Program-made: the position numbers and the translations under genes
Notes under the pieces: model-generated
What the model saw: the letters and a program-made list of their open reading frames with translations, nothing else
The model's database searches: none
What the model was told of the DNA's origin: nothing
Assembly: GCF_022809355.1 (NCBI RefSeq)
Contig: NZ_JAKZMM010000046.1
Coordinates: 1-33,387, forward strand
Origin: Parabacteroides faecalis
Lineage (GTDB): Bacteria > Bacteroidota > Bacteroidia > Bacteroidales > Tannerellaceae
Direction of reading: 5' to 3'
DNA length: 33,387 nucleotides
Part shown: piece after piece, positions 979-33,308 of the stretch
Numbering within the stretch: the first letter of the stretch is position 1
Layout of the letters: every line of letters starts with the position of its first letter

Positions 979-1064
979 TTTAGTTCACGACGTGGATTAA
1001 GTAGTTCACGCCGTGAACTAAGTAATCCACGCTGAGAACTAAGTAATCCACGGCGTGAACTAAT
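979..1064. repeat. Array A: four 21-base units of palindromic TTCACG/CGTGAA words
   Basis: The TTCACG or TCCACG word recurs at 984, 1005, 1026 and 1047, exactly 21 bases apart. Each unit is a near palindrome of the form TAGTTCACG-n-CGTGAACTA, but left and right half-words vary independently: GTTCACG or ATCCACG on the left, CGTGGAT, CGTGAAC or a degraded TGAGAAC on the right. Units are joined by CTAAGTA. The array lies in the 314-base spacer between genes ending at 917 and starting at 1232. The rest of that spacer (1065-1231) is AT-rich and shows only a weak promoter match near 1201. Confidence 0.85.
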
Positions 1065-1200
1065 AAATATCTGCCGAGAATTTATAGAATGGATAAGCAC
1101 TCTTTTCAGAATAAATCCACCCCAAAACACAAATTAAATCCGTACAGAGAAAAAACATAAAACAAAGCTGCCCCCGAATCAGTTATATAATAAATATCTG

Positions 1201-1208
1201 TAACTTTA
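1201..1208 (+). promoter_or_regulatory. Possible -7 promoter element for the glycine-zipper lipoprotein gene
   Basis: TAACTTTA at 1201-1208 matches the Bacteroides -7 consensus TAnnTTTG in all but the last base and sits 24 bases before the ATG at 1232. No clear TTTG is seen at the -33 position. Confidence 0.3.
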
Positions 1209-1231
1209 TCCCAAATGAAGAAAAAGCTTAT

Positions 1232-1864
1232 ATGAAAGCAAATTATATAATCGGTTTATTTGTCAGCTCTGCGTTATTGTGCAGTAGTTGCAAGACCATG
1301 ACTCCGCAGAACAAGCAAATGTTTGCCATGCAGACAGGAGGAATGATCGGAAGCGTATCGGGTTCTTTGGTAGGAGACCGTATCGGTGGCTGGGGAGGCT
1401 CATTAATTGGTTCCGTTGTAGGCGGAGTTGCCGGAAGTGCTTTAGGTGCTGCTGCCGCCAACCCGTATAAAACACAACCGCAACAAAGCAACGCACCGGA
1501 AGAAAGGCACGTGCCACAATTGGTTATCCGGGATATCCTGCTGACGGATGAAAACAAAAACGGGATTCTGGAAGCTGGCGAGCATGCGCATCTGACTTTT
1601 ATCATCCAAAACAACGGCTCGAGAAATATCACGCAGATAATGCCCCAGTTGAAAGGGAAAAAGGAAGCCAAGCGAATCCGTAATTCGGAAACTATCTCTA
1701 TTTCCCATATCAAACCAGGAGAAGAAATCCGGTATCGGGTCAATTTACTGGGAACATCTCAACTGAAAGAAGGGAAAGCCGTTTATCAGATCCGTCTGGA
1801 AGATAACCAAGGGCAGGATTTATATGAAGAGGATTTTTCTTTTCCGACAAATAAAAGGCTATAA
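1232..1864 (+). CDS. Glycine-zipper lipoprotein with a C-terminal calcium-loop/Ig-like domain
   Basis: A 210-residue lipoprotein: the signal ends in LLCSSC with Cys20 as the lipidated residue. Residues about 35-75 form a glycine zipper (repeated G-x3-G pattern, ending in GSALGAAAA), a segment type that packs into or crosses membranes. After a Gln/Pro linker, residues about 90-205 form a beta-rich domain. It opens with DENKNGILEAGE, which has the spacing of an EF-hand or dockerin-like calcium loop, and continues with NNG and KPGEE turns typical of CARDB-like Ig folds. The combination suggests an envelope-anchored protein exposing a small binding domain. The substrate is unknown. The gene stands alone, convergent with sufS. 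Confidence 0.7.
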   Translation: MKANYIIGLFVSSALLCSSCKTMTPQNKQMFAMQTGGMIGSVSGSLVGDRIGGWGGSLIGSVVGGVAGSALGAAAANPYKTQPQQSNAPEERHVPQLVIRDILLTDENKNGILEAGEHAHLTFIIQNNGSRNITQIMPQLKGKKEAKRIRNSETISISHIKPGEEIRYRVNLLGTSQLKEGKAVYQIRLEDNQGQDLYEEDFSFPTNKRL

Positions 1865-1872
1865 AAACATAA

Positions 1873-1898
1873 AGGAGCTCTTTTCACAAAGAACTCCT
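1873..1898 (+). terminator. Hairpin after the glycine-zipper gene
   Basis: AGGAGCTCTTT and AAAGAACTCCT form an 11-base stem with one mismatch and a TCAC loop, starting 9 bases after the stop at 1864. The following sequence is CT-rich rather than a pure T run, so termination strength is uncertain. Confidence 0.5.
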
Positions 1899-1989
1899 CC
1901 ACTCTCTTAACTAACTTAATGCTTGAAGTAGTATTACCTATAGGACTTCAAGTCTGAATTTTACTAAGGAAATGACTATTTATAATTCT

Positions 1990-2045
1990 ATGGCGCAAAT
2001 ATAGGAATATTTTTCTATACGAGAAAAGTCCTATATATGCGCCAT
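1990..2045. repeat. Long inverted repeat between convergent genes
   Basis: Arms at 1991-2006 (TGGCGCAAATATAGGA) and 2029-2044 match at 15 of 16 positions, with one more pair outside (1990/2045). The spacer holds a further TTTTCT/AGAAAA pair, so the whole stretch can fold into one long hairpin. It lies in the spacer between the convergent gene at 1232-1864 and sufS, and is the only strong candidate for a 3' end signal for sufS. No target-site duplication or protein-coding content is visible. Confidence 0.7.
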
Positions 2046-2103
2046 CTACTTATAAATCGTTAAAGATACTCAATGAAACTGCATTGTTACGCCATAAGTA
2101 ACC

Positions 2104-3324
2104 TCATCCGAACATCTGGCGTACCCGTTCGATTCCGCGAACCAGTACATCCACTTCCTCACGGGTATTATAAAAGGAGAAAGAGGCACGGACTGTTCCT
2201 TCGATCCCCAACGCCTGCATCAGCGGCTGTGCACAATGATGCCCCGTACGGACAGCAATGCCCAAGCGGTCAAGCAACATGCCCATATCATAGTGATGAA
2301 TATTTCCAACCAGGAAAGAAATGACAGCACCTTTGTCTGCCGCCTCACCGAAAATACGCATGCCTTCAATTTGTTTCAACTGAGCGGTAGCATATTCCAA
2401 TAAATCTTGTTCCTGTGCTGCAATCCGATCCATACCAATCTTTTCCACATAATGCAAAGCTTCTGCCAAAGCTGTACTGCCAATATAATCAGGCGTACCG
2501 GCCTCGAACTTAAATGGCAATTCATTAAAGACCGTTTTCTCGAACGAAACGGTAGCAATCATCTCACCACCGCCCTGATACGGAGGAAGTTTATCCAGCC
2601 ATTCTTCTTTCCCATACAAAACGCCAATACCCGTCGGACCATAAATCTTATGGCCGGAGAAAACGAAGAACTCGGCATCCAAATCCTGTACATCTACTTT
2701 CATGTGGGGCGTTGACTGCGCACCATCAACCAATACCGGAACGCCCTGTTCGTGAGCAATGGCAATGATTTCCTTTACCGGATTTACCGTACCCAACACA
2801 TTGGAAACTTGCGTAACGGCCACCAGGCGTGTCTTCTCAGTAAATAACTTTCGATATTCATCAAGCAATAATTCCCCTTTATCGTTCATCGGAATTACCC
2901 GCAAAGATATACCTTTCTTGGCCGCCTGAATTTGCCAAGGCACAATGTTAGAGTGATGTTCCATGACAGAAACAATCACTTCATCGCCGGCAGACATGCA
3001 TTCATCGGTAAAGCTGCTTGCTACCAAGTTAATGGATTCGGTAGTTCCTCGTGTAAAGATAATCTCATTTGAAGAACGGGCATTCAGGAAACGTTGAACG
3101 GTACGGCGTGCTTCTTCGTGTGCCTCGGTCGCTTCCTGACTCAAGAAATGAACTCCGCGATGAATATTCGCGTTTACATTATAATAACCGTTTTCAATCT
3201 TCTCGACGACGCAACGCGGTTTCTGCGTCGTTGCTGCATTATCCAGATAAACCAATGGTTTGTTGTAAACCTGATGGGACAGAATCGGGAAATCTTCCCG
3301 AATGGATTGTATATCGAAAGTCAT
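2104..3324 (-). CDS. sufS: SufS cysteine desulfurase
   Basis: A PLP-dependent group II cysteine desulfurase that takes sulfur from L-cysteine for Fe-S cluster assembly. The PLP-binding lysine is in SGHKIYGPTG at about residue 225 and the persulfide cysteine is in RTGHHCAQP at about residue 364, matching the E. coli SufS positions. An open frame continues upstream to 3372, but starting at MTFDIQ (3324) gives 406 residues, the length of E. coli SufS, and places a TATCTTTG promoter element about 38 bases upstream; starts at 3327 or 3345 remain possible. It is separated from sufD by 259 bases containing a strong terminator, so it is probably transcribed separately from the rest of the cluster. 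No sufE or sufU is visible in the window. Confidence 0.95.
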   Translation of the reverse strand: MTFDIQSIREDFPILSHQVYNKPLVYLDNAATTQKPRCVVEKIENGYYNVNANIHRGVHFLSQEATEAHEEARRTVQRFLNARSSNEIIFTRGTTESINLVASSFTDECMSAGDEVIVSVMEHHSNIVPWQIQAAKKGISLRVIPMNDKGELLLDEYRKLFTEKTRLVAVTQVSNVLGTVNPVKEIIAIAHEQGVPVLVDGAQSTPHMKVDVQDLDAEFFVFSGHKIYGPTGIGVLYGKEEWLDKLPPYQGGGEMIATVSFEKTVFNELPFKFEAGTPDYIGSTALAEALHYVEKIGMDRIAAQEQDLLEYATAQLKQIEGMRIFGEAADKGAVISFLVGNIHHYDMGMLLDRLGIAVRTGHHCAQPLMQALGIEGTVRASFSFYNTREEVDVLVRGIERVRQMFG

Positions 3325-3361
3325 CATCTTATCTATTAAATTCATTATTGATAACAACCCA

Positions 3362-3369
3362 CAAAGATA
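3362..3369 (-). promoter_or_regulatory. -7 promoter element for sufS
   Basis: The minus strand reads TATCTTTG, an exact match to TAnnTTTG, downstream of the sufD terminator and about 38 bases before the chosen sufS start. No good TTTG is seen at the -33 position. Confidence 0.6.
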
Positions 3370-3421
3370 CAATGTTTAATCGATATATGTATAAATCAGC
3401 AAGGACAGGATCAATCGGGTA

Positions 3422-3462
3422 CAAAAAAGGCCGCCTTTCCTACCGCCGTAGGTAAAAGCAGC
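3422..3462 (-). terminator. Intrinsic terminator between sufD and sufS
   Basis: On the minus strand a hairpin closes around a CCTAC-GGCG-GTAGG core, extended by TTT/AAA and then GCTGC/GGCGGC pairing (with G-T pairs and a bulge), and is followed directly by CTTTTTTG. It lies about 120 bases past the sufD stop and is the strongest transcription stop seen in the suf region. Confidence 0.8.
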
Positions 3463-3583
3463 CCATACTAAAATAGAAATATTTAAAGGATAAATTGGCT
3501 TGTTGTTTACGTCAGCAAAAATAAATACGACATATGACAACAAGATGACAAAAGTATGTCATTTTATCCTTTGCACTCTTTCA

Positions 3584-4927
3584 TTATTTACAGATCCGAC
3601 AACCGGCACATTTAGCCAATTCACCTCGGAAACGTTTCTCTACCAACTTATGCAGGCGATCTTTCAAGGCTTCCAGACGAACATGTTCGATTACATCCGA
3701 TGTAAAGGCAACACTAAGCAACATCCGTGCTTCGTCGCGGGAAATACCTCGGCTCTGCATATAGAAAAGTGCGTTCTCGTCCAGCTGACCGGTACTCATA
3801 CCATGTGAACATTTCACATCGTCGGCATAAATTTCCAACTGAGGTTTGCTGTACATCCGGCATTCGCGGGTAGCACACAAGTTTCGGTTGGTCTGATAAG
3901 CTTCTGTCTTGTCAGCACCCTGCTCAACCAGGATTCTACCACTGAACGCACCAATTGCACGATCGTTCAAGATATTCTTGAAGAGCTCGTTGCAAGTACA
4001 ATGTGGCACTTTATGATGTACTAAAGAATAAGTATCCAACTGCTGCTCCTTATCCAGCACTGACATACCACAAAGAGAAAGATCAGCTCCTTCACCTTCC
4101 AACGAGACGAAATAATTATTACGAGTCAATCCGTTTGTCAGTGTAACTCCATTCACAACAACACTCGAATGAGCTTCCAGACGAACAAACAGATTAGAGA
4201 AACGGGTTGTCGATACCGAACTTTCCTCCAAATCATAATAATCAGCACGAGCATTGGCTCCGGCAAAGATTTCAATCACTTGGTTAGAGAAGAATTTCAC
4301 ATCATCAATACTATGGTCACACACCAACAGACGAGCTTCAGCATTCTCTTCTACGATGAAGAGAATACGGCGATTGGCCATTGTATCAACATCACTACGG
4401 AAAATATTCACTAACTGAATGGGACGTTCCACCACCGTATGCTTCGGAACATATACAACGAAACCATCTTGCGCCAACATCGTATTCAAGGCAACAACAC
4501 CATTTGCCGATGTCTGTGCCAGTTTACCATAATAGCGGGCAGCAATCTCCGGATATTCGGAAGCAAAACGGCATAAGCTTCCGGCATAAACACCTACGGG
4601 CAGATGCGCTTTCGGTAATTCTTTATCGTAGAAAGAATCGTTCACCACAAAATAAAGTGAGGTGCTCAGATTAGGAACATCACAGTGAAATACGTCATAC
4701 GGATTGACCGGAATATTCAGCCGATTGATATTGATCCCATAATCGGGAGCAAAAGCCTTTTCCACATCCGTATATTTATAATCTTCGCCCTTCAACGATG
4801 GAAAGCCCAACCGCTCGAAATCGGCGAATGCTTGCGCACGCAAAGCATTCAATACCGGTACACTCTTGCGGCAGATCAAATCCTCATACTGGGTAAAGAG
4901 ATCAATGTATTGTTGTTCTGTTTTCAT
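3584..4927 (-). CDS. sufD: SufD, Fe-S cluster scaffold subunit
   Basis: A 447-residue SufB/SufD-family beta-helix protein, partner of SufB and SufC in the SufBC2D scaffold that builds Fe-S clusters in the cytoplasm. Family features include the C-terminal [27 protein letters not shown] region, in which the His of KCSHG corresponds to the conserved SufD histidine, and the central run of beta-strand repeats. The N-terminal helical part holds [15 protein letters not shown], typical of SufD. The start codon overlaps the sufC stop by four bases (ATGA type), indicating translational coupling. A strong terminator follows at 3422-3462. Confidence 0.95.
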
Positions 4928-5679
4928 AAGTCTCCCATCTCCTTCTTGATCCAGTCGTAACCTTTTTCTTCCAGTTCGAGAGCCAGCTCCGGACCTGCGG
5001 TCTTGACAATACGACCTTTATAAAGCACATGTACAATGTCCGGTTTAATATAATCCAGCAAACGCTGATAGTGAGTAATCACGATGGTCGCATTATTAGC
5101 AGTCTTCAATTTGTTTACTCCACTTGCCACAATACGCAAGGCATCAATATCCAAACCCGAATCCGTCTCATCAAGGATTGAAAGTTTCGGTTCAAGCATC
5201 GCCATCTGGAAAATCTCATTACGTTTCTTTTCACCACCCGAGAAACCTTCATTCACACTTCGGCTTGCCAGCTTGTTGTCTAATTCAACAATTGCCCGTT
5301 TCTCACGCATCAGTTTCAGGAACTCTGTAGCCGAAACCGGTGGCAGGCCATTATATTTCCGGTGTTCGTTTACGGCTGCACGCATGAAGTTTACCATACT
5401 TACACCCGGAATTTCCACCGGATACTGGAAACTCAAGAACAGACCTTCACGGCTACGGTCTTCCGGAGACAACTCCAACAGGTTCTTCCCATTGAATGTT
5501 ACTTCACCTTCTGTTACTTCAAAGGCCGGATTTCCCACCAAGACACTACTCAGTGTACTTTTTCCCGATCCATTCGGTCCCATGATAGCATGGACTTCTC
5601 CAGCCTTTACCGAAAGGTTGATACCTTTCAATATCTCTTTGCCATTCACATTGGCATGTAAATTCTTTATCTCTAACAT
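4924..5679 (-). CDS. sufC: SufC, cytosolic ABC-type ATPase
   Basis: A 251-residue ABC ATPase that powers Fe-S assembly on SufBD and has no transporter partner. The Walker A motif is GPNGSGKST (about residues 34-42), the signature is SGGEKKR near residue 147, and Walker B with the catalytic Glu is [12 protein letters not shown] near residue 165; DETDSGLD is characteristic of SufC. The switch histidine is in VITHYQRLL. Length is normal. It overlaps sufD by four bases and starts 15 bases after the barrel protein gene at 5695-6471. Confidence 0.96.
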
Positions 5680-5694
5680 ATTTTACTTTCCTCC

Positions 5695-6471
5695 TTAGTA
5701 TCTGTAATAATATTCCTGGTCATGTCGATTAACCCGATAAAACCAGCCCTCAATCAAATCTCCAATAATTCCACCCAACGAGAATCCATCTTGTTGCGTG
5801 AATCTCATGGGGAACGTTACCTTAATACCTAAATTCAACCGTTGATACAGCCCTTTATCCCGCAGCTGATACTTTGCTCCTCTGTTATCTACTGCTTCAA
5901 TTCGGGTACGAGAGTCAAGTCCGATTCCCAAATCATAACGAACCACAAAGGCAACTGACGAGAACAAATAAAAATCAAGTCCTACAGAAGGCACAAATAC
6001 CGCCCGAGGATTAACGGCCGTTTGTTTCACCGTTAGCGACCACTCACCGGATGATACACCAGTTGTATTTTCTTCCCTGCGATCGCCCCAATTAAACAAC
6101 CAACCAGCTGCCAAATAGGGTTGAACAAACCATCGATCCGGAACAAAATAACGCTTCACTCCTAGGCTAATTCCTTCCATACTACGGCAGGAATACCCAT
6201 AATCCAACTCTGTCCGTTCATAACCGCCATAGACGGCCCATTTCTTGGGCAGGAAATATTCGCCGGTAAACCCGAAAGACTCACCTCCGTTTCCTGTAGA
6301 AACCCGTTGCGGATTTTCTGACAAAATCGGGCGAACCAACACACCTCCGGTAAATCCGAGGCTCCAACGTGCCCCATCGACATCGTTACCAGTATAAAAC
6401 TGAGCTTGCACTCCTTGCATCGTCAAGAACGAAAGGAGACAACATCCCATCCATTTACATCCACTCTCCAT
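5695..6471 (-). CDS. Outer-membrane beta-barrel protein inside the suf cluster
   Basis: A 258-residue exported protein. Residues about 7-24 form a signal peptide ending in VQAQ. The mature part has alternating hydrophobic/aromatic strands with Gly-rich turns (WSLGFTGGVL, WAVYGGYERTELDYGY, WFVQPYLAAGWLF, VAFVVRYDLGIGL, YQRLNLGIKVTF) and an aromatic C-terminus, as in small porin-like or OmpA-type barrels of Bacteroidetes. It sits between sufB (86-base spacer with a TTCTGC/GCAGAA hairpin) and sufC (15-base spacer), same strand, so it is very probably co-transcribed with Fe-S assembly genes. No link of this family to Fe-S biogenesis is known to me; the function is unassigned. Confidence 0.75.
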   Translation of the reverse strand: MESGCKWMGCCLLSFLTMQGVQAQFYTGNDVDGARWSLGFTGGVLVRPILSENPQRVSTGNGGESFGFTGEYFLPKKWAVYGGYERTELDYGYSCRSMEGISLGVKRYFVPDRWFVQPYLAAGWLFNWGDRREENTTGVSSGEWSLTVKQTAVNPRAVFVPSVGLDFYLFSSVAFVVRYDLGIGLDSRTRIEAVDNRGAKYQLRDKGLYQRLNLGIKVTFPMRFTQQDGFSLGGIIGDLIEGWFYRVNRHDQEYYYRY

Positions 6472-6557
6472 CTCTCTTCTACTATTTGTTTCGTCTAACC
6501 TTTCTGCACGCTTGCAGAAGTTCTATCTCTGTAAGAAACGCTGTACCAGCCTTCTTT

Positions 6558-8003
6558 TTACCCTACGCTACCCTCGAGCGAGATACTTAACAGTTTCTGT
6601 GCCTCAACAGCAAACTCCATCGGAAGCTTATTCATGACTTCACGAGCATAACCATTGACAATCAAACCCACTGCTTCTTCAACGGAAATTCCTCGCTGCT
6701 GGCAATAAAACAACTGCTCTTCACTGATCTTACTTGTCGTCGCTTCATGCTCAACCACTGCCGTTTCATTCTGAATATCGGCATACGGGAAAGTGTGTGC
6801 TCCACAAGTAGGACTCAACAATAAACTATCACACTGGCTATGGTTACGAGCACCTTCCGCACGTGTAGAAATCTTCACCAGACCTCTGTAACTATTCTGA
6901 CTATGACCGGCAGATATTCCTTTTGAGACAATTGTGCTCCGGGTATTCTTTCCCAGATGAATCATCTTTGTACCTGTATCAGCCTGCTGATAATTATTCG
7001 TTACGGCGACTGAATAAAACTCACCTACCGAATGATCACCAGCCAAGACACAACTCGGATATTTCCATGTAATTGCAGAACCTGTCTCTACCTGAGTCCA
7101 TGAGATTTTACTGTAATCACCTTTGCACAAGCCTCTCTTTGTTACGAAGTTGTAAATACCGCCTTTCCCGTCTTTATCACCCGGATACCAATTCTGTACT
7201 GTCGAATATTTCACTTCTGCATGATCGTGAGCAACAATCTCGACAATAGCTGCATGCAATTGGTTTTCATCGCGCATCGGAGCAGTACAACCTTCCAAGT
7301 AACTAACGTAAGCCTCATCATCAGCCACGATTAATGTACGTTCAAACTGTCCAGTATTGGCGGCATTAATACGGAAATACGTACTCAACTCCATCGGACA
7401 ACGAACACCTTTCGGAATATACACAAATGAACCATCAGAAAATACAGCCGAATTCAAAGCCGCAAAGAAGTTATCCCGATAACTAACAACGCTTCCCAAA
7501 TACTTCTTCACTAAATCCGGATGATTCTGTACCGCCTCACTGAACGAACAGAATATAATACCTTTCTCTGCCAAGTTCTCCTTAAACGTTGTCTTGACAG
7601 AAACACTGTCCATAACGGCATCGACAGCCATTCCGCTCAATACCTTTTGTTCTTCCAATGGAATTCCCAGCTTATCGAAGGTTTTCAACAATTCAGGATC
7701 AACTTCTTCCATACTTTTCGGTCCGTCTTTCTTAACAGGAGCCGCATAATAAATAATATCCTGATAATCGATAGGCGGAATTTTCAACAAAGCCCAGTCC
7801 GGCATTTCCAATGTTTGCCAGTAACGGAAAGCACGCAAGCGGAACTCAAGCAACCATTCCGGCTCATGTTTCTTGGCAGAAATAATCCGAACGGTCTCTT
7901 CATCCAGCCCTCGATGGATCACATCTGTATCTATATCCGTAACGAATCCATATTTATATTCCCCATTCGTTACTTCATTCAACACGCTATTTGAATCTTG
8001 CAT
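6558..8003 (-). CDS. sufB: SufB, Fe-S cluster scaffold subunit
   Basis: A 481-residue SufB, the catalytic scaffold subunit that receives sulfur and builds the cluster with SufC and SufD. The conserved Cys in [10 protein letters not shown] is at about residue 391 (counterpart of E. coli Cys405), followed by the conserved Glu in [25 protein letters not shown]. The N-terminal region carries the SufB-type [13 protein letters not shown] segment. It begins only 30 bases after the cvpA-like gene, tying the suf genes to the rimP-nusA-infB run. The transcription unit appears to continue through the barrel gene to sufC and sufD. Confidence 0.96.
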
Positions 8004-13206: not shown

Positions 13207-13294
13207 CGAAGGTCTCTTCCAGAACTCTCGAAAATCGTTTGCAAAACCAACGAGAATCGTTTACAAAAAATACGGGTTCTGAAATCGGTCTTTC
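13207..13294. repeat. Array D: four 22-base units in the rimP leader
   Basis: Plus-strand units start at 207, 229, 251 and 273 past 13000 with CGAAGG, CGAAAATCG, CGAGAATCG and CGGGTTCTG, exactly 22 bases apart. Units 2 and 3 share CGARAATCGTTTRCAAAA. GTTTGCAAAAC is a short palindrome inside the unit. The word AACTCTCGARAATYG at the unit 1/2 junction recurs on the minus strand of array E near purL. The array lies in the predicted transcribed leader of the rimP operon. Confidence 0.8.
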
Positions 13295-18810: not shown

Positions 18811-18910
18811 ATAGCCATGCCTCATTATCCCTTATTGCATTTATCTTTTTATCCTAATAGAATTCTGCATTTTACAAGTAGTTTTTAAGATAATCCTCTA
18901 CATAAACTAA

Positions 18911-19010
18911 TTAATTCACCTATATGATTTAATCAAATCACCAATATGAGGCAATCAATTCACCTATATAAATTAATTAATTCACTAATATGAATCAATT
19001 AGTTTATAGT
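18911..19010. repeat. Array B: four to five 22-base units of TTCACC/TATATGAA words
   Basis: The word (T/A)TCAC(C/T) recurs at 18915, 18937, 18959 and 18981, exactly 22 bases apart, each followed by an AT-rich core and usually TGA. The ideal unit is a palindrome with arms TTAATTCA and TGAATTAA around CCTATA. A degenerate fifth unit (TTAGTTTATAG) follows at 18999. It lies in the 550-base spacer between the aminotransferase terminator and the lipoprotein gene at 19272. The rest of that spacer (18811-18910 and 19021-19271) is AT-rich, with no convincing ORF. Confidence 0.82.
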
Positions 19011-19200
19011 ATTAAAATACAGAAAATACCATAACAAAACAAACAAAGTGGCTCTAGAGAAGAAGAAAATACATCAGACTTCTCACAACAGAAATTATCT
19101 TCTTAAAAAGTTTATAAAACAGATTTCCTTTACAGAAGAACAAGAATAGAAACAAGAAGATTAATATTCTGTAATCTATTAAATTAATCAGCTTTCGGCA

Positions 19201-19242
19201 AAACAATACCAGCGCTACATTGTTTTATAAATACAAACAATA
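19201..19242 (+). promoter_or_regulatory. Alternating inverted repeats upstream of the lipoprotein gene
   Basis: AAAACAAT (19201-19208), ATTGTTTT (19220-19227) and AAACAAT (19236-19242) allow two mutually exclusive hairpins, 30 to 70 bases before the ATG at 19272. They could form an operator pair or an RNA switch; no consensus promoter is obvious nearby. Confidence 0.35.
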
Positions 19243-19271
19243 TTAAGCATCATTTTTAAAATACAGAATTT

Positions 19272-20243
19272 ATGAATAGAATAATTTTAGTTGGTTCAAT
19301 TATTTTGATGGGCCTTTTCTCTTGCTCCAAAGAGGATGATTTAGACCAGCAAATCACACCACAAAAACTTGTTTCCCCAGATCTAACAGCTTATGTAGCC
19401 AATACAGACCAGACAACAAGTCCAATGACTGGTTTTCTTGAGATTTATCCTTGTACAGAAGGTACTTCTATTTACTTCGGAAATTACGTTGAAGATAAAA
19501 AGACAGCCTTTAATGCCTTTTATCCCATCGAGAATGGAGAGATTTATGCCGGTTATTACAGAAAACTTTCAGTCCCGGAAAATATCTACAACCTGGTTTA
19601 CTGGGGTACACCGGTAAATAACAATGATCCGATTTACGAATCACCAGCCATAAAGAATCCTGAAATCAGAATTGATACGGATCTGTCAAAATTATATTTG
19701 GAACTTAGGAAAAATTCGGATGATGACACGTACAGACCGGTATTTGACCTCGTCTATGCCTTGAGAGAAAAGAACCTAGCCAATGAAGATTTAAGTACAT
19801 CACTCGACCGAGTTGTTGCCGGACTCAAAGTCATTGTCAAGACATCCAACGGCACTCCGTTCAGTGCCAACATATCGAAAATGGAAGTCCGCATCAACGG
19901 CATCGCTGAGAAACTGAATTTCTATACGGCAGAACCGGAAAACAAAACGAAAACCGTCAAATTCGAATTAAAGCGTTCAGCCGACAACAAACAAATGACA
20001 ACAGGTACCGTTATGCTATTCCCTTCAACCGAAAATCCGTTATTGGAACTTTTCATAACCCTAAGCGATGGAAGTACGCATTCCGTATCTAAGAATTTAA
20101 GCAGCACACTTTCGGCTAACAACCGACTGACATTAAACATTATCGTCGGCGATATTTTCGGAGGAGGAAGTGAAAGCGGTTACTTTACCGTACAGAATTG
20201 GATCGAATCTACAGAGACCATCGAATTTCCAGTCATTCCTTAA
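19272..20243 (+). CDS. Surface lipoprotein, fimbrillin/FimB-Mfa2-like
   Basis: A 323-residue lipoprotein. The lipobox is LFSC with Cys18, followed at once by SKEDD, the acidic lipoprotein export signal that directs Bacteroidetes lipoproteins to the cell surface. The rest is beta-rich with no catalytic motif. The C-terminal pattern (SANNRLTLNIIVGDIF, then VQNWIESTETIEFPV) resembles the ends of fimbrillin-type or FimB/Mfa2 anchor proteins of Bacteroidales; this family call is tentative. It is a single-gene unit with a long repeat-bearing upstream region and its own terminator. No other fimbrial gene is adjacent. Confidence 0.6.
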   Translation: MNRIILVGSIILMGLFSCSKEDDLDQQITPQKLVSPDLTAYVANTDQTTSPMTGFLEIYPCTEGTSIYFGNYVEDKKTAFNAFYPIENGEIYAGYYRKLSVPENIYNLVYWGTPVNNNDPIYESPAIKNPEIRIDTDLSKLYLELRKNSDDDTYRPVFDLVYALREKNLANEDLSTSLDRVVAGLKVIVKTSNGTPFSANISKMEVRINGIAEKLNFYTAEPENKTKTVKFELKRSADNKQMTTGTVMLFPSTENPLLELFITLSDGSTHSVSKNLSSTLSANNRLTLNIIVGDIFGGGSESGYFTVQNWIESTETIEFPVIP

Positions 20244-26818: not shown

Positions 26819-26851
26819 AACTTTTAGTACAATTTGATAATAATCGGCTTG

Positions 26852-26938: not shown

Positions 26939-27037
26939 TTATTCATGATTCCAGAGGCTTTCCCGAACAATAATCCCTTTGTTATTGGGTGTGTTCTCAT
27001 TAATCAACTCATAAGCGTTTTCTTCAGGTGATTCGAC
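26939..27037 (-). pseudogene. 32-codon gene relic between purL and rplM
   Basis: On the minus strand a frame without a start codon runs from just after a TAG (27038-27040) to TAA (26939-26941). It reads VESPEENAYELIN, then ENTPNNKGIIVRESLWNHE, which looks like the coherent C-terminus of a soluble protein. Upstream in the same frame lies repeat array E, and nothing coding-like is seen beyond it. It may be the tail of a gene lost from this locus; the family is not recognised. A short real peptide from a non-ATG start is an alternative. Confidence 0.4.
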
Positions 27038-27043
27038 CTAAAA

Positions 27044-27131
27044 GATCTTTGTGTAAGAAAACCCACGAAAACCGTTTTCAATTCTCGAGAGTTTTGAAAA
27101 CGATTCTCGTGGGTTTCTGTATGAGAAGTCT
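27044..27131. repeat. Array E: 22-base units and long inverted repeat after purL
   Basis: Read on the minus strand, units begin at 27109, 27087 and 27065 (22-base steps); the first two begin CGAGAAT. Inner palindromes GTTTTCAAAAC and TCTCGAGA alternate. The array also forms a large imperfect inverted repeat (ACCCACGA at 27061-27068 with TCGTGGGT at 27107-27114, and CGTTTTCA with TGAAAACG inside), so it may double as the purL 3' hairpin. It shares CGAGAATCGTTT-CAAAA words with array D. The 430-base spacer 26726-27155 also holds the relic, the promoter and the rplM leader. Confidence 0.8.
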
Positions 27132-27155
27132 TACCTTATTATATATAAGACCTTT

Positions 27156-30100
27156 TTATTTCTTGTTTTCTTCAATCCATTTACGAGCATTCACAAAAGC
27201 TTCGATCCACGGAGTCACTTCATCGTTCCGGTGTTCCAATGGATAATAAGCGCATTGCCATGGGAACATTGCACGTTCCAAGTGAGGCATCATCGCTAAA
27301 TGACGGCCATCGTGTGAGCAAACACCGGCAACAGCCCAAGGAGAACCGTTCGGATTAGCTGGATAGCCTTCATAATTATACTTAGCTACAATGTGATATT
27401 CTTTTTCCTCATACGGGAAATCAAACTTACCTTCACCATGAGCAACCCAGATTCCCAGCTTACTGCCGCTCAAAGAACCGAACATGACTGAATGGTTCTT
27501 CGGGATTTCCAAAGTAATGAAGTTAGATTCGAACTTGTGCGAATCATTATGCAGCATCTTATGTTTCTTTTCGTGTTCCGGATACAAGAGTTCCAATTCG
27601 GCCATCAACTGGCATCCGTTACAAATACCCAAACTCAAGGTATCTTTCCGGGCATAGAAACGATCGATTGCCGCTTTTGCCTTTTCGTTAAACAAGATAC
27701 CAGCAGCCCAACCCTTGGCAGAACCCAATACGTCTGAGTTAGAGAAGCCACCACAGAATACGATCAGGTTGACATCATCCAGTGTCTCCCGGCCTGAAGC
27801 CAAGTCAGTCAGGTGAACATCCTTCACATCGAAGCCAGCCAGATACATTGAGTAAGCCATTTCACGCTCACCATTGGTTCCCTTATCTCGCAAGATAGCT
27901 GCTTTAATACCTGTCGGTTCACGACGATCAGCCGAAATACCGTAAGAAGCCAACGTACCGGTAAAGTTCTTGTTGAACTTGAATTCCAGCGGCTGCATCT
28001 TATAGTTCTCGAAACGATTGCCGGCACATACATTACCGCTCTGCTTGATATCCAACTTATAAGAAGATTCATACCAAACATCCCGCATATAGTCGATACC
28101 GAAATGATACTGGATTCCATCTTTCGATACGAGGATATGGCGTTCGTTGGTCGGTTTTGCAATTTCGGCAAAGCCTACACCTGCATCCATCATCAGTTTT
28201 TCGAAGGCTTTCTTGTCTTTTACCTGAACGATGATACCCGGATTTTCGGCAAACAGAATCTTCACAATGTCTGATTCATTAATCTTATCCAAGTTAACTT
28301 CCAAACCACCTTCTACATTGGCAAAGCACATTTCCAACAAGGTAGTAATCATACCACCAGCCGAGATATCGTGACCAGCCAGAATCAAACCTTTCTCGAT
28401 TGCCTCCTGAACAGCATTGAAGGCATCGCTGAAATATTCCGGATCCTTCACGGTCGGCACTTCATTACCCAACTTGTTCAATACCTGTGCCAAAGCAGAA
28501 CCGCCCAGTTTCAAGGTATCGAATGAGAAATCGATATAATAAATATGTGAATTCCGTTCGTGAACCAATACCGGAGAAACGATCTTCTTCACATCGCTCA
28601 CTTCGGCACCGGCAGAAATGATCACGGTACCCGGAGCAATTACTTTGTCATCTCCATATTTCTGAGTCATTGACAACGAGTCTTTACCGGTCGGAATATT
28701 GATTCCCAACTCACAAGCAAAGTCTGATGCTGCCTGTACGGCTTTATACAAACGGGCATCCTCGCCTTCATTGCGGCACGGCCACATCCAGTTTGCACTC
28801 AAAGAAACACCAGTCAGCTTATCAGTCAACGGAGCAAAGACGATATTCGTCAAAGCTTCGGCTATCGCCATTACAGATCCGGCTGCCGGATCTACCATAG
28901 CTACCTGCGGCGCATGACCAATAGAAGTAGCGATACCAGCTTCTCCGCGGTAATCCAAAGCGACAGCTCCCAGGTCACTCAACGGCAATTGTAATTCACC
29001 CTGGCATTGCTGACGGGCAATCTTACCGGTTACGGAACGGTCCACTTTATTAGTCAACCAGTCTTTACAAGCAACGGCTTCCAATTGAAGTACGTTTTCC
29101 AGATAATGATGTAATTCTGATTCTTTGTAAACAACCGGCTGATAAGTTTCTTCTACCGTATGATCGCGCATGATGGTACGAGGCGGCTTACCGAACATAT
29201 ATTCCAACTTGATATCAATCGGTTTAACGCCATCTGCCTGTTCGAAGACAAACTTCATATCGTTGGTAGTTTCACCTACGACATACATCGGGGCACGTTC
29301 ACGTTCAGCAATACGTCTTACCCGTTCTACGTCTTTTTCTTCCATCAGCAAGCCCATACGTTCCTGGCTTTCATTACCGATGATTTCCTTTGCCGACAAG
29401 GTCGGATCACCAATTGGCAACTGACTCATATCGATATGTCCACCGGTTGCTTCCACCAATTCAGACAGACAGTTCAAATGACCGCCAGCTCCGTGGTCGT
29501 GGATAGAAACAATCGGATTATCTTCAGATTCGGCAATCGAACGAATCACGTTAGCCGCACGCTTCTGCATCTCAGGATTGGCACGCTGTACAGCGTTCAG
29601 CTCGATACCACTCGTATATTGTCCGGTATTTACTGACGAAACAGCACCACCACCCATACCGATCCGATAGTTGTCACCACCGATTACAACTACCTTTTCT
29701 CCAGGTTTCGGATCACCTTTCAAAGCATCCCGTTTATTGGCAAAACCAACACCACCAGCCAACATGATGACTTTATCATAAGCATACTTCTTATTATTCT
29801 CAGCATGCTCGAATGTCAGGACAGAACCGCAGATCAGCGGCTGACCGAACTTATTACCGAAATCGGATGCACCGTTAGAGGCTTTAATCAAGATCTGTTC
29901 CGGAGTCTGATACAACCACGGACGAGGATCAAGTACTTTCTCCCATTCACGGGCGCCTTCCGTACGAGGATAAGCCGTCATATAAACAGCTGTTCCAGCA
30001 ATTGGCAAAGAAGCCTTACCACCGCCCAGACGGTCGCGGATTTCACCACCCGTACCTGTTGCCGCACCGTTAAACGGTTCTACGGTTGTCGGAAAGTTAT

Positions 30101-30845
30101 GTGTTTCCGCTTTCAACGAGATCACAGTCTTGATGTCTTTGATCGCGAAGTAATCGGGTTTATCACCGCTCTTCGGAGCAAACTGTTCTACTACCGGACC
30201 ATCGTTGAAGGCCACATTATCTTTATAAGCCGATACCAACTTATTCGGGTTCTCGGCCGAAGTTTTCTTAATTAAATTGAATAACGAACTTTCCTTTTCT
30301 TCGCCATCGATAATAAAGGTTCCGCCGAAGATCTTATGACGGCAGTGTTCAGAGTTCACCTGAGAGAAACCGAACACTTCGCTATCCGTCAGCTTGCGTT
30401 GCAGCTTTTCGCTGACTTCCTTCAGGTAAGAGATTTCTTCCTGACTTAATGCCAAACCTTCCTGTTCGTTATAGGCTTCCAGATCATCAATATAAACAAT
30501 TGGATCCGGTTGTTTACTAATCGTAAAGATTTCCTGGTTCAGTCCATTGTAAATACGTTGCAGCATCGGATCATGATCAGCATCGCCCGACTCTACCGGG
30601 AAATACTCTTCTATACGACTAATACCGGCCAAACCCATGTTCTGGGTTATTTCAACTGCATTCGTACTCCATGGCGTTATCATTTCACGACGCGGACCAA
30701 CAAACCAACCGTTCATGGTTTCTGTTTCAACGGGTGTTGCTCCACTGAATAGCCACACCAGTTTCTTTGTGTCTTCTGGTGAAAACGCTTGCTTAGCTTC
30801 TACGGCCAGCACCGTTTTAGTTGGAGATTGAAAGAATAGAATCAT
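27156..30845 (-). CDS. purL: Phosphoribosylformylglycinamidine synthase, large single-chain type
   Basis: A 1229-residue FGAM synthase for the fourth step of purine synthesis, converting FGAR and glutamine to FGAM with ATP. It is the long form found in Proteobacteria, Bacteroidetes and eukaryotes. It has an N-terminal PurS-like domain, two AIRS-related halves with the ATP site (VNSEHCRHKIFGG, KAETHNFPTTVEPFNGAATGTGG) and a C-terminal glutaminase. The glutaminase nucleophile Cys is in LGICNGCQLM (about residue 1134) and the His of the triad in WVAHGEGKFDFP. Its upstream region holds a promoter, a perfect inverted repeat and an octamer array. Confidence 0.97.
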   Translation of the reverse strand: MILFFQSPTKTVLAVEAKQAFSPEDTKKLVWLFSGATPVETETMNGWFVGPRREMITPWSTNAVEITQNMGLAGISRIEEYFPVESGDADHDPMLQRIYNGLNQEIFTISKQPDPIVYIDDLEAYNEQEGLALSQEEISYLKEVSEKLQRKLTDSEVFGFSQVNSEHCRHKIFGGTFIIDGEEKESSLFNLIKKTSAENPNKLVSAYKDNVAFNDGPVVEQFAPKSGDKPDYFAIKDIKTVISLKAETHNFPTTVEPFNGAATGTGGEIRDRLGGGKASLPIAGTAVYMTAYPRTEGAREWEKVLDPRPWLYQTPEQILIKASNGASDFGNKFGQPLICGSVLTFEHAENNKKYAYDKVIMLAGGVGFANKRDALKGDPKPGEKVVVIGGDNYRIGMGGGAVSSVNTGQYTSGIELNAVQRANPEMQKRAANVIRSIAESEDNPIVSIHDHGAGGHLNCLSELVEATGGHIDMSQLPIGDPTLSAKEIIGNESQERMGLLMEEKDVERVRRIAERERAPMYVVGETTNDMKFVFEQADGVKPIDIKLEYMFGKPPRTIMRDHTVEETYQPVVYKESELHHYLENVLQLEAVACKDWLTNKVDRSVTGKIARQQCQGELQLPLSDLGAVALDYRGEAGIATSIGHAPQVAMVDPAAGSVMAIAEALTNIVFAPLTDKLTGVSLSANWMWPCRNEGEDARLYKAVQAASDFACELGINIPTGKDSLSMTQKYGDDKVIAPGTVIISAGAEVSDVKKIVSPVLVHERNSHIYYIDFSFDTLKLGGSALAQVLNKLGNEVPTVKDPEYFSDAFNAVQEAIEKGLILAGHDISAGGMITTLLEMCFANVEGGLEVNLDKINESDIVKILFAENPGIIVQVKDKKAFEKLMMDAGVGFAEIAKPTNERHILVSKDGIQYHFGIDYMRDVWYESSYKLDIKQSGNVCAGNRFENYKMQPLEFKFNKNFTGTLASYGISADRREPTGIKAAILRDKGTNGEREMAYSMYLAGFDVKDVHLTDLASGRETLDDVNLIVFCGGFSNSDVLGSAKGWAAGILFNEKAKAAIDRFYARKDTLSLGICNGCQLMAELELLYPEHEKKHKMLHNDSHKFESNFITLEIPKNHSVMFGSLSGSKLGIWVAHGEGKFDFPYEEKEYHIVAKYNYEGYPANPNGSPWAVAGVCSHDGRHLAMMPHLERAMFPWQCAYYPLEHRNDEVTPWIEAFVNARKWIEENKK

Positions 30846-30860
30846 ATATGATCAATTTAT

Positions 30861-31036
30861 AGTTTTAAGTTCTCAAGTTATTAAGCATTTAAGTTCCTGA
30901 GTTTTTCAATTCATCCGTTTTAAAAGCACGAAACAAATCAGTTTGAATCATGAATCAACTTGCAAACTCATAAATACATTCATCCGTTGACTCCCTAACT
31001 GACAAACTTACCAACTCATAAACTTATCAACTTAAA
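30861..31036. repeat. Octamer inverted-arm array H upstream of purL
   Basis: Left arm (30861-30907): repeats of AGTTnnnn at 8-base steps (AGTTCTCA, AGTTATTA, AGCATTTA, AGTTCCTG, AGTTTTTC). Right arm: AACTTACC, AACTCATA, AACTTATC, AACTTAAA at 31005-31036, also 8-base steps, preceded by looser copies from 30958. ATTCATCCGTT occurs twice (30909-30919, 30978-30988). The array occupies most of the predicted purL leader. A two-unit trace of the same octamer (AACCTACA, AACTCAAC) lies near 33085-33100. Confidence 0.8.
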
Positions 31037-31050
31037 GTCTGTAACAGACT
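31036..31050 (-). promoter_or_regulatory. Candidate operator at the purL transcription start
   Basis: AGTCTGT-A-ACAGACT is a perfect 7-base-arm inverted repeat overlapping the predicted start site, immediately downstream of the -7 element. It could be a repressor site or a 5' RNA hairpin. Confidence 0.5.
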
Positions 31051-31051
31051 A

Positions 31052-31059
31052 CAAAGATA
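31052..31059 (-). promoter_or_regulatory. -7 promoter element of purL
   Basis: The minus strand reads TATCTTTG, an exact match to TAnnTTTG, about 207 bases before the purL start. The -33 position is only TCTG-like. Confidence 0.55.
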
Positions 31060-31135
31060 CGTTTTTTCCGGTAATGAACAGATATATTCCCGGCAAACCC
31101 TCCTAAAATATACGAACATTTAAAAGCCTTTCCGT

Positions 31136-31894
31136 TCAGAAACCAAACAAGCCGTCAGGTTCCGAATCATTTTCGTCTTCTTTCCCCACACATTCCAGGA
31201 AAAGATCCCCTGTATTTCGAATCTGTCCGGCAGGTAATTTTTTCCGTAAAGCTTCCAATTGATCTGGAGTTTCAAAGCAGACAACCGCCCGATACAGATC
31301 GCCTTCTTCAACAAACCAGACACCTGTATATTGGATTCCTTCCAGCAAATGCGTCAAAGAAGAACTGACTTCCGACAAGCCGATCTTACCCCGCAGGAAT
31401 TTCAAGATACCGGATTTAGGCGAAAGCGATTGAAATGCGACCGGGAATTCCACTTTTTCGGCTTCCTCTCCGGACAGGAAATGACGCAAAACCGCATCTG
31501 CCTGCAGCTTTGCCCGCTCTGATCCGGAAGGAAATACCAATGAAACGTACCGGTTACCACATACCGTTTGCAACTGATAGGGCGAAAGGCAATCAATACA
31601 TCCTAATGTATCTGCCCGTTGACAACGGAATACATGTAACGAATAAATCCCATACGCATCTTCCGGAGTTGGCATTTCATAGATTTCCAATGCATATTCT
31701 TCCCCATCATATTCCAAATCGCGAGCTGTCAGCTTCGTAACGCCATACTCCAGAAACTGTTCAGCTCCGCCATTCATATAACCATACAGTCCGGTTCCGG
31801 TAAAAACACGCTCACGCTTCACCGTCATCTCCTGAGCCTCCAAACAGGATATGGATAAACACAGCAAACAAGTCAAAAGCAATCCTTTCATCAT
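31136..31894 (-). CDS. DUF6599-like exported protein
   Basis: A 252-residue protein with an N-terminal signal. Cleavage after LEAQ or lipidation at Cys17 (ISC) are both possible. The segments YMNGGAEQFLEYG and ALEIYEMPTPEDAYGIYSLH match the pattern I associate with DUF6599, a periplasmic family of unknown function often found next to DUF362 proteins. It has five Cys in the mature part, including CIDC near residue 100. Its start overlaps the stop of the upstream DUF362 gene, so the two are translationally coupled. Confidence 0.7.
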   Translation of the reverse strand: MMKGLLLTCLLCLSISCLEAQEMTVKRERVFTGTGLYGYMNGGAEQFLEYGVTKLTARDLEYDGEEYALEIYEMPTPEDAYGIYSLHVFRCQRADTLGCIDCLSPYQLQTVCGNRYVSLVFPSGSERAKLQADAVLRHFLSGEEAEKVEFPVAFQSLSPKSGILKFLRGKIGLSEVSSSLTHLLEGIQYTGVWFVEEGDLYRAVVCFETPDQLEALRKKLPAGQIRNTGDLFLECVGKEDENDSEPDGLFGF

Positions 31895-33036
31895 CCATTC
31901 AGATTTATCTCATGTAAATCGATTTTCTCCGGGTTGGCAATACCCAAACCTAAGGTTTCAGCCATCTCCAGGAAAGCACGTGCACCTTTCTTTTCCTCTT
32001 TCTGTACGCCTTCGGCTATACGCTTCTCCAGAATCATCCGATAACCGACCTCATCAACAGCCACCGGGTCTGTTCCTGCCAGTATGGAATGATACGGACA
32101 AATAAACTGCGGATTGGCAGCCGGTCCGCCATCAAAGCAACCTATCATTCCATCCAAAATATTCAATACTACCTTATCTCGTAAAGGAGGGAAAGCACAA
32201 ACCGAAGCACAAGTATCGTTCCACATCTGTCCATGCAAGCGGGCTGTATTCGTAATCGAGCCAAAAGCCAGGTTCTTCATGCAGCCGGTAATCGTTGTTC
32301 CCGCATTCTTCAGAATCGGTACATTGATGATTTTCGTCACCATCTCCGTACAGATCTTCGTGAAATAAGAATACTTTCCGCCATTAATCATATACGGCAT
32401 GGTATAAGCATCATATTCTCCTTCTACATCCACAAAGAAGAACTGCGACTTATCCACCCGTTCTTCTCCATAAAACTTACCTTCGGCATTCACATAACTG
32501 CCATTCTCATCCTGATATTCTGTCCCGATGATCCGAATTTCCGGATATTGTTCGGCAGTAAAGCCAGCTTCTCGCAAATCAACTTCCCGGCGGTCCCAAA
32601 TAATGATCTGCCGACGGGAAATACCGGATTCCTCCAATTGTCGGACAATCGACTTCGTCAAAGCATGCGAAGTAGACAACAATTTGCCCGCAATCGGGTT
32701 TACTTTCAAACCGATCACATCCTCCGGTCCCACAAACTGAAGCCAGGCGGCTTTCAAATCCGATGCACCCGTCAAGTCAAGCATGCATGTCTTCAACATT
32801 TCGTATGCAATCTCTTCCGACGGACGCCCATCTACTATACAATCCGTATTCTTGACTTTCACCACCTTACCCGGATACTTACCCGGCATGGACTGCGCCG
32901 TGCGTGGAACAGCCAACGCATCCTTCAAATTCGTTTCCGGTTTATCATCAGCCACCGGAACAGCTTTTGCTATCGGAGAAAATACCATTCCAGCTCCACC
33001 CAAAGCCAACGAACGGAAAAAGTTTCTTCGTTTCAT
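31891..33036 (-). CDS. Tat-exported DUF362 domain protein
   Basis: A 381-residue protein with a twin-arginine signal (KRRNFFRS, hydrophobic core, cleavage after AKA near residue 25), so it is folded, probably with a cofactor, before export. The body has DUF362-type segments: VGPEDVIGLKVNPIAG, NVPILKNAGTTITGCMKNLAFGSI and DPVAVDEVGYRMI. No ferredoxin CxxCxxC cluster motif is visible, unlike many DUF362 proteins, so the cofactor is unclear. A consensus promoter lies about 88 bases upstream; the gene forms a two-gene operon with the DUF6599-like gene. Confidence 0.8.
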   Translation of the reverse strand: MKRRNFFRSLALGGAGMVFSPIAKAVPVADDKPETNLKDALAVPRTAQSMPGKYPGKVVKVKNTDCIVDGRPSEEIAYEMLKTCMLDLTGASDLKAAWLQFVGPEDVIGLKVNPIAGKLLSTSHALTKSIVRQLEESGISRRQIIIWDRREVDLREAGFTAEQYPEIRIIGTEYQDENGSYVNAEGKFYGEERVDKSQFFFVDVEGEYDAYTMPYMINGGKYSYFTKICTEMVTKIINVPILKNAGTTITGCMKNLAFGSITNTARLHGQMWNDTCASVCAFPPLRDKVVLNILDGMIGCFDGGPAANPQFICPYHSILAGTDPVAVDEVGYRMILEKRIAEGVQKEEKKGARAFLEMAETLGLGIANPEKIDLHEINLNG

Positions 33037-33123
33037 ACTCCCTATCTATTTATGTTTTGAAGTAAAAGTTCAACAAGAATTTATAAACCTACAAACTCAA
33101 CTATTCAAAAAATGAAATACATA

Positions 33124-33154
33124 CAAAAGTAAAAAAACTATCTGCCAATCCAAA
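33124..33154 (-). promoter_or_regulatory. Promoter of the DUF362-DUF6599 operon
   Basis: The minus strand reads TTTG (33151-33154), 19 bases, TACTTTTG (33124-33131), a full Bacteroides-type match. Just upstream CAGGC (33160-33164) and GCCTG (33173-33177) form a small inverted repeat that may be an operator. Confidence 0.72.
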
Positions 33155-33198
33155 GGAAACAGGCAAAAGGATGCCTGATCGTATAAAGATAGTAGAAA

Positions 33199-33308
33199 AG
33201 TAATCGAAAAGTATATTTTTGACAGCTGTCGAAAAGCTTTTCCATATTAGTCGAAAAGCTTTATCACATATATGGTAAAGCTTTTTGACAGCTGTCAAAA
33301 ATATGAAA
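33199..33308. repeat. Array C: about four or five 22-base units of GACAGCTGTC and AAAAGCTTTT palindromes
   Basis: AAAGCTTT-type palindromes start at 33232, 33254 and 33276 (22-base steps), and GACAGCTGTC occurs at 33221 and 33287, exactly three periods apart. The two intermediate slots hold CATATTAGTC and CACATATATG, so palindromes alternate along the array. The second GACAGCTGTC is flanked by TTTTT and AAAAA, a perfect 20-base palindrome at 33282-33301. It lies upstream of the DUF362 promoter. The rest of the right end (33309-33387) shows no gene. Confidence 0.83.

Follow-up and report, generated by a model that had tools for sequence, protein, structure and literature searches.

Our analyses show that the window (the whole 33,387-nt stretch of DNA analyzed, which is from the genus Parabacteroides) contains three palindromic arrays, A, B and E, whose families are dispersed over the genome, keep a fixed pitch and mostly four units, have constrained arms beside the 21-bp cores, and include a copy upstream of a gene coding for a long HU-HIG protein. 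Judging from these sequence comparisons, each array family is probably the operator of one paralogue in a lineage-expanded set of long HU-HIG proteins, with autoregulation also probable.

Arrays in the window

A, B and E are genuine arrays, far above chance, and are the three stretches with the highest autocorrelation in the window (A 0.79, B 0.76 and E 0.63 over 70 bp; TRF was used as well). The features of the window are:

900..974, unstranded: left arm of array A, with A/T triplets at a spacing of about 22 bp (a pattern derived from 50 flanks and weak in any single copy)
975..1068, unstranded: core of array A, four 21-bp palindromic units centered on 990, 1011, 1032 and 1053
Bounding the core of array A: variants of ATTCTTTAGTTCACG / CGTGAACTAAAGAAT
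1069..1143, unstranded: right arm of array A, with triplets as in the left arm (same pattern)
13228..13268, unstranded: C, the ACGAGAATCGTTT word in two direct 22-bp units, autocorrelation 0.56
18902..19008, unstranded: array B, four 22-bp units of AATTCACNNNNGTGAATT type
27059..27116, unstranded: D, hairpin-type inverted repeat with the same word as C
33213-33304: autocorrelated stretch of array E, 22-bp period
33216..33301, unstranded: inner core of array E (86 bp), four 22-bp units readable between TTTTTGACA and TGTCAAAAA
About 33196-33321: array E with its outer inverted ends
33322..33387, unstranded: sequence starting CAGGGCTGACGC, found again next to E copies where other contigs end, and likely to be the terminus of an insertion sequence

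An earlier note on this DNA had claimed five arrays, with a period of 21 bp in A and 22 bp in B to E. This holds for A, B and E but not for C and D, which are members of another, hairpin-type repeat. C was rejected as a four-unit array, as it has two direct 22-bp units only, and D as a 22-bp tandem, being an inverted repeat without one. When 3 mismatches are allowed, their word, ACGAGAATCGTTTNCAAAA, matches 32 times versus 4 for the reversed pattern and, in the 11 places inspected, is mostly part of a dispersed hairpin repeat of ~50 bp. Other observations of the same note proved accurate. Half-words are indeed exchanged between units, as seen in the junctions of A, made almost exclusively of GAACTA/TAATCC- or GGATTA/TAGTTC-type pairs, and in one orthologous array where the two inner units are inverted as a block. 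Likewise, CRISPR-style unique spacers are absent, the units being contiguous with 1-2 bases between half-words. Terminal repeats, by contrast, had been denied, and both A and E have symmetric ends; beyond the TTTTTGACA / TGTCAAAAA ends of E, a further ~20 bp are conserved.

Dispersed families with a fixed pitch

This genome carries at least 25 copies of A (counted among about 100 of 138 matches listed), 20 of the 25 extracted being 94 bp long, together with seven copies of B, six of them in addition to array B of the window, and at least 35 of E, which are those retained with two recognizable ends from 81 matches on both strands, the rest being dropped. In a 433-kb sample of this genome, a period of 21-22 bp applies to 13 of the 15 intergenic short-tandem matches. 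Shuffled spacers, where the earlier note had proposed to look for arrays at equal frequency, yielded no short-tandem arrays in three dinucleotide-preserving shuffles of that 433-kb set, an outcome contrary to the refutation which the note had envisaged. Such arrays, with differing words, occur in eight of nine sampled genomes, and 36 of the 43 intergenic short-tandem matches found in sampled genomes have a period of 21-23 bp. The core has four units in 20 of 25 A copies, 34 of 35 E copies (86-bp core), all seven B copies (by eye), 78 of 83 arrays of the TATCTTTAG family, whose loci may overlap one another, and all 19 arrays of a second family of genome G019; exceptions are some arrays with 2, 3, 5 or about 6 units.

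Association with long HU-HIG genes

In each of the A, B and E families, one copy lies immediately upstream of a gene for a long HU-HIG protein (Pfam PF18291), at about 111-135, 53 and 75 bp from its start, respectively, distances that vary with the start codon chosen. Five further word families (F, G, H, J and K) are also found upstream of long HU-HIG genes. Two of them, G and H, were first found elsewhere in the genome (L019 and L012) and have their HU-HIG copies at L467 and L480, the one at L467 having two units only. For F, J and K, the analysis covered the copies upstream of three more long HU-HIG genes.

We scored an array as present when a 20-23-bp period reached a match of at least 0.62 over 50 bp within 400 bp upstream of the gene, with strands taken from the searches. 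Long HU-HIG proteins were defined as having 180 aa or more, and 139 genes with noncoding upstream DNA, including some that themselves carry arrays, served as controls. Three genome sets (80 loci) were used, the third made up of four further genomes; sets 2 and 3 contributed 30 HU-HIG loci each, of 82 and 87 matches. Among the long HU-HIG genes, an array was present before 7 of 8 in set 1, 6 of 8 in set 2 and 10 of 12 in set 3, compared with 21 of 139 controls (Fisher p 3.2e-5, 5e-4 and 1.7e-6, respectively); the test on set 1 is not independent because the idea arose from the genome of that set. A threshold of 0.58 gave 7/8, 7/8 and 11/12 versus 25/139, and one of 0.66 gave 6/8, 4/8 and 9/12 versus 19/139. 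Short HU-HIG genes had an upstream array in 3 of 12, 0 of 22 and 5 of 18 cases in the three sets. At 0.62, the long HU-HIG genes L520, L531 (241 bp upstream searched), L467 and L509 lacked a passing array, and one word family of the 433-kb sample (AAAAGCCGG, 21 bp, at L014) showed no link to any HU-HIG gene.

The HU-HIG family was reportedly introduced by Burroughs and colleagues in Cell Cycle in 2017. Its model has 7 to 54 matches per genome, counting ordinary short HU/IHF proteins. Most long members combine an N-terminal HU/IHF-like domain with a winged-helix-like C-terminus, the latter recognized through weak Pfam matches below curated cut-offs; in L484 an Ig-like DUF4469 takes its place. 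Judged by eye, three closest cross-species protein pairs have words in common, L466/L487, L467/L486 and L511/L512 (67%, 55% and 88% identity), and two other pairs have none, L476/L503 (68%) and L480/L511 (56%). No solved structures were found for two of the HU-HIG proteins. Neither published DNA targets of these proteins nor the pairing with arrays was found in the literature searched, in which subscription papers were thinly represented.

A/T-phased arms

In the arms next to the 21-bp cores, A/T triplets are maintained at intervals of ~22 bp even though the arm bases diverge. This phase is present in the A family (50 flanks) and in three relatives (59, 73 and 28 flanks). Among five orthologous arrays, the A/T class was altered at 7 of 110 phase sites versus 197 of 680 other sites, the phase columns having been chosen by hand after inspection of the profiles. 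The extended arm pattern is absent from E, and array-free spacers show no peak of a general 22-bp A/T periodicity. Scanning this genome with the arm profile yielded four non-A sites above the best control, and chains of the unit profile exceeded the 1% control level in 12 of 230 scans, A loci included, compared with 0-3 in each other sample.

Genomic placement and relatives

A occupies 12 tandem, 7 divergent and no convergent gaps, with six copies inside called ORFs, and E occupies 11, 11 and 4, with five copies inside ORFs and four at their edges; the background for both is 50 tandem, 13 divergent and 12 convergent gaps. The TATCTTTAG family (30 tandem, 17 divergent, 3 convergent; 12 inside ORFs and 1 at an edge) compares with background gaps of 40, 15 and 10 (p 0.21 and 0.14). 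These counts, set against the background, support no firm placement rule. The spacer between trpE and trpG, which holds A, measures 285 bp here versus 3-75 bp in 28 of 29 relatives. At the spacer of B, two of 29 relatives have a small array of other words. In a third relative, an array lies at another position of the locus. The E locus was matched in only 10 of 38 genomes. The second refuting condition of the earlier note, arrays missing from these spacers in close relatives and no further copies genome-wide, gave a mixed answer: the corresponding spacer is free of arrays in most relatives, but other copies are abundant genome-wide.

Alternative explanations

Several of these features would be expected from MITE-like mobile elements with symmetric ends, for which HU-HIG proteins would be cofactors of transposition or integration, or merely carried along, instead of regulators. 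The families are multi-copy and intergenic with species-specific words, A and E have terminal inverted repeats, array positions are non-orthologous between this genome and G019, and an insertion of ~210-280 bp is centered on A between trpE and trpG. We nevertheless consider this explanation unlikely. No recurrent target-site duplication appeared in 25 A and 80 TATCTTTAG elements, five arrays sit in the same place in two species with 80-88% identity, conservation peaks centrally and declines outward, the opposite of transposon ends, and the phase of the arms is preserved while their bases diverge.

Even less probable is that the arrays are RNA or single-strand hairpin elements, maintained by selection on a long transcript hairpin. 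A does fold into a single long hairpin that is more stable on one strand (mean -43.6 vs -35.3 kcal/mol, the same strand being lower in 22 of 25 copies), but in 10 of the 12 tandem-gene contexts that strand runs antisense to the genes on either side, the outer flanks pair no better than permuted controls within copies, save for a weak signal adjacent to the core in G019 (p 0.002), and a search of Rfam returned tRNA as its only match and nothing for the arrays. Neutral minisatellites generated by replication slippage, to which the tandem build and the deviant unit numbers might point, are scarcely credible: we set them aside because the unit number is near-fixed at four in the families counted and constraint reaches the non-repeated arms; moreover, a single pitch is common to unrelated words and the arrays associate with one gene family. 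The unknown repeat-generating process that the earlier note had also envisaged is not needed to account for the pitch.

A putative operator model

The arrays look like binding sites of HU-like proteins because most families examined have a copy before such a gene. Among the options raised in the earlier note, we favor binding platforms for a dimeric DNA-binding protein, an idea close to its nucleoid organizers, and sequence comparison allows us to name HU-HIG (PF18291) as the candidate binder. In this operator model, the winged-helix-like C-terminal domain would read the palindromic word of its family, with one dimer per 21-22-bp unit, such that the usual four-unit core might hold four dimers along a single face of the helix, and bending or wrapping of the array DNA would fall to the HU domains. 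The A/T triplets found every two turns over ~70 bp on each side in the 21-bp families may be minor-groove contacts of HU. The copy at the promoter of the HU-HIG gene itself would mediate autoregulation, of whichever sign, and the others (at least 24 of A, 6 of B and at least 34 of E) could form a regulon or an architectural network. How the copies spread over the genome is a part of this model that we infer. Alternatively, HU-HIG genes and arrays could simply travel together.

The pairing of arrays with HU-HIG genes provides concrete candidate targets of ~90 bp, making the specificity, stoichiometry and role of HU-HIG proteins testable, and offers an account of a class of tandem repeats that is dominant in the intergenic DNA of a major gut genus. 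Should the dispersed copies be bound, they would represent an overlooked layer of sequence-specific DNA architecture in Bacteroidales. More speculatively, and with considerable doubt on our part, a Parabacteroides chromosome might hold several (eight visible) parallel and mutually insulated "packaging codes", in which every HU-winged-helix paralogue spreads its own four-site, A/T-armed platforms across many intergenic positions, uses one of these for its own control and changes its words from species to species in an arms-race-like manner. If true, this would amount to a chromatin-like, sequence-addressed organization of a bacterial genome.

Comparison with known systems

The BrickBuilt MITE of Porphyromonas gingivalis resembles the arrays in being intergenic, multi-copy and species-restricted within Bacteroidales, and has 23-nt tandem repeats, inverted ends and long stem-loop potential (PMC4596501). 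It has many direct repeats, variable in number among strains, and IS5-like ends of GAGACCTTTGCA type (PMC4596501). Ends and unit structure differ here from such variable 23-nt direct repeats and IS5-like ends: the arrays usually consist of four palindromic units, end in other sequences, have A/T-phased arms and are linked to HU-HIG genes. REP/BIME elements are also dispersed intergenic palindromes in mosaic arrangement, but carry GTAG or CGTC tags, occur mostly as single units or dimers and lack four-unit arrays at a two-turn pitch (PMC3733652); for A and E, the consensus ends are words other than these tags. Lrp-type octamer operators such as that of BarR consist of four to five semipalindromic sites with a stated spacing of two helical turns, with DNA wrapped around an autoregulated octamer of four dimers (PMC10201364). 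They involve another protein fold and single loci instead of dispersed families, and are a functional analogue only. The family of the proposed binders, HU-HIG or HU_rel (Pfam PF18291, NCBIfam TIGR01201), is known here as a family model only. In Escherichia coli, MatP with matS, or SlmA, provides the example of tens of specific palindromic sites per chromosome served by one DNA-binding protein. Those systems pair one protein with one word per genome, whereas here each of several paralogues has a word family to itself.

Tandem arrays of palindromic units in Parabacteroides spacers

The window is an entire contig of a draft genome (4.31 Mb in 104 contigs), and its strongest tandem signals are A (975-1068), B (18902-19008) and E (33213-33304), three arrays of palindromic units at 21-22 bp. 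The earlier note had claimed five such arrays; these three stand, while the two others, C and D, are members of a dispersed repeat of hairpin type. Equal frequency in shuffled spacers, which the note named as a refutation, was not seen in this genome: three shuffles of its spacers gave no short-tandem match. Across nine sampled Parabacteroides genomes (~1.1 Mb), 36 of 43 intergenic short-tandem matches, a count that excludes two runs of N, have a period of 21-23. Eight of the nine contain such matches; the 45 kb sampled from G044 had none. Besides N runs, three shuffles of congener spacers returned one match of period 15, three of period 16 and three of period 22 (G019); where matches of the same kind recur in all three shuffles, they probably lie in DNA left unshuffled by the mask. 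Noncoding DNA of other Bacteroidales genera (41 kb) yielded four matches, three of them at 21 or 23, and that of E. coli (7.5 kb) none.

Each family has its own word. At up to two mismatches, P. faecalis has 138 matches to the A word CACGNCGTGAACTAA and 14 to its reversed pattern; at up to one mismatch it has 103, and 24 congeners have 0 to 3 apiece, which is the reversed-control level. A longer A pattern was not found exactly in the public species collection, which may omit records near this genome. The genome has at least 25 A elements; of 25 extracted, 20 are 94 bp long with four palindromes, two are 52 bp, two 73 bp and one 115 bp. E has 81 matches, both strands counted, and an 86-bp core, which we interpret as four units spaced 22-22.5 bp, in 34 of the 35 copies with two recognisable ends; all seven B copies have four units, as judged by eye. 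The same design occurs in congeners. In G019, TATCTTTAGNCTAAAGATA has 248 matches per strand (six for the reversed pattern); it is present in at least three Parabacteroides assemblies, with four units in 78 of 83 arrays at fetched loci. A second G019 family combines three AAATATCGWCGATATTT-type units with one TATCTTTAG unit in 19 copies, every one found on both strands. A two-turn pitch, mostly with four units, is common to these unrelated words.

Some further features were noticed. In 10 of the 12 tandem contexts among the 25 A copies, the strand forming the more stable hairpin (G.U pairs) is antisense to both neighbour genes. An arginine-repressor gene has an E copy before it (L018, upstream of 18953-19453). 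The ACGAGAATCGTTTTC word (32 matches, reversed 4) marks a separate dispersed inverted repeat of ~50 bp. Another sequence, beginning with CAGGGCTGACGC, borders several E copies on their outer side, often where contigs end; at L055 it lies inside the right end of E. It probably represents an insertion-sequence end and may target E elements.

Dispersed sequences in the window and at fetched loci (L-numbers)
Window 13228-13268 and 27059-27116; L294, L297, L299, L303, L307: ACGAGAATCGTTTTC inverted repeat
Window 33322-33387; L055, L060, L144, L047, L141, L048: sequence beginning with CAGGGCTGACGC

Arrays precede most long HU-HIG genes

HU-like genes lie downstream of four of 43 array loci found de novo, and all four belong to PF18291 (HU-HIG), a family with 20 matches in the P. 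faecalis genome. Each window family has a copy before a long HU-HIG gene (180 aa or more, HU domain plus C-terminal region).

Copies of window arrays upstream of long HU-HIG genes
A copy: about 111-135 bp upstream of the gene at C1:28526
B copy: 53 bp upstream of the gene at C25:9793
E copy: 75 bp upstream of the gene at C49:25910

Five further long HU-HIG genes are preceded by arrays of families G (two units), H, F, J and K. G and H were first met elsewhere in the genome; F first turned up at its HU-HIG copy, J and K at theirs alone, and each of these three is known from one copy. We scored an upstream array as a 20-23-bp period with a match of 0.62 or more, strands being taken from the searches for all 80 loci. 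Arrays precede 7/8, 6/8 and 10/12 long genes in P. faecalis and two groups of relatives (30 of 82 and 30 of 87 matches), the last of which (G012, G018, G008, G041) was examined only once the idea was fixed. The corresponding figures for short HU-HIG genes are 3/12, 0/22 and 5/18, and for control genes with noncoding upstream DNA 21/139. Judged by eye, words match in three cross-species pairs of closest proteins and differ in the pairs L476/L503 and L480/L511. Four nearly alike short genes (L471-L474) have upstream repeats unlike the 22-bp arrays: of 20/40 bp and GGATCAGTGTGGATGAATG type before three of them, and of 20 bp with the word TTTCGGTATAT before the other.

All ten long proteins tested match PF18291, and in nine the HU domain is followed by a C-terminal region whose helix-turn-helix matches are weak or absent; an alignment of eleven proteins reveals a conserved helix-like block in this region. 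The L484 protein ends in an Ig-like DUF4469 domain. NCBIfam names all three proteins tested HU_rel.

Phased arms and the spread of copies

The arms beside the cores are constrained in the 21-bp families. A arms carry A/T triplets at -22, -44 and -66 (0.84-1.00 A/T; 50 flanks), separated by G/C-rich stretches, a pattern absent from these flanks past about -85; in the TATCTTTAG family this phase recurs in each of three species (59, 73 and 28 flanks). Identity between A arms is 0.31-0.39 over the first three 22-bp blocks; since arms of different copies have so few bases in common, simple inheritance does not explain their phase. In G019 arms it falls from 0.57 adjoining the core to 0.34. Between two relatives, An277 and CALUZR, A/T class changed at 7/110 phase-column sites versus 197/680 others in five orthologous arrays, the columns having been chosen by hand with the profiles already seen. 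E flanks lack the extended A/T arm pattern. One P. faecalis locus (L014:13785-13960, contig C13) has about eight successive units of 22 bp in which AAA-type triplets keep phase but no word repeats.

The trpE-trpG spacer holding an A copy (L250:1951-2044, contig C29) measures 285 bp. Of 29 relatives examined, 28 have only 3-75 bp there, which implies a gain of about 210-280 bp, core plus arms. In the remaining relative (L275, from G050), the 212-bp spacer holds other, unrelated repeats: a tandem repeat of roughly 30 bp next to a GTAGAGACGGGGCGTGCCCCGTCTC hairpin resembling a GTAG-type REP. The elements examined showed no recurrent target-site duplication. Only two of 25 A loci share an orthologue-level neighbour gene with 24 G019 array loci (part of all G019 arrays), and there the positions differ. 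An277 and CALUZR have five arrays in the same place, in surroundings 80-88% identical; in a sixth pair (L357/L388) the alignment reaches near the array of one, and the other has none there. The inner two units of one orthologous array (L331:5436-5518, L386:4579-4661) are inverted as a single block, spacer dinucleotides included. This spread would fit a scenario in which whole modules rarely transpose and their cores are homogenised afterwards.

Proposed mechanism and known systems

We propose that one HU-HIG dimer would bind each unit via its C-terminal domain, loading four dimers per core, and that the HU domains might bend or wrap the DNA, with A/T minor-groove contacts in the arms. The upstream copy would allow autoregulation of the HU-HIG gene, and dispersed copies could define a regulon or play an architectural role.

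Searches on Bacteroides/Parabacteroides intergenic palindromic or tandem repeats, nucleoid proteins and HU-HIG names, mostly outside subscription papers, returned no description of this pairing. The closest repeat found is BrickBuilt (PMC4596501). The nearest working analogue found in print is BarR (PMC10201364), an Lrp-type octamer whose four to five sites are spaced at two helical turns; its fold differs from that of HU-HIG proteins.
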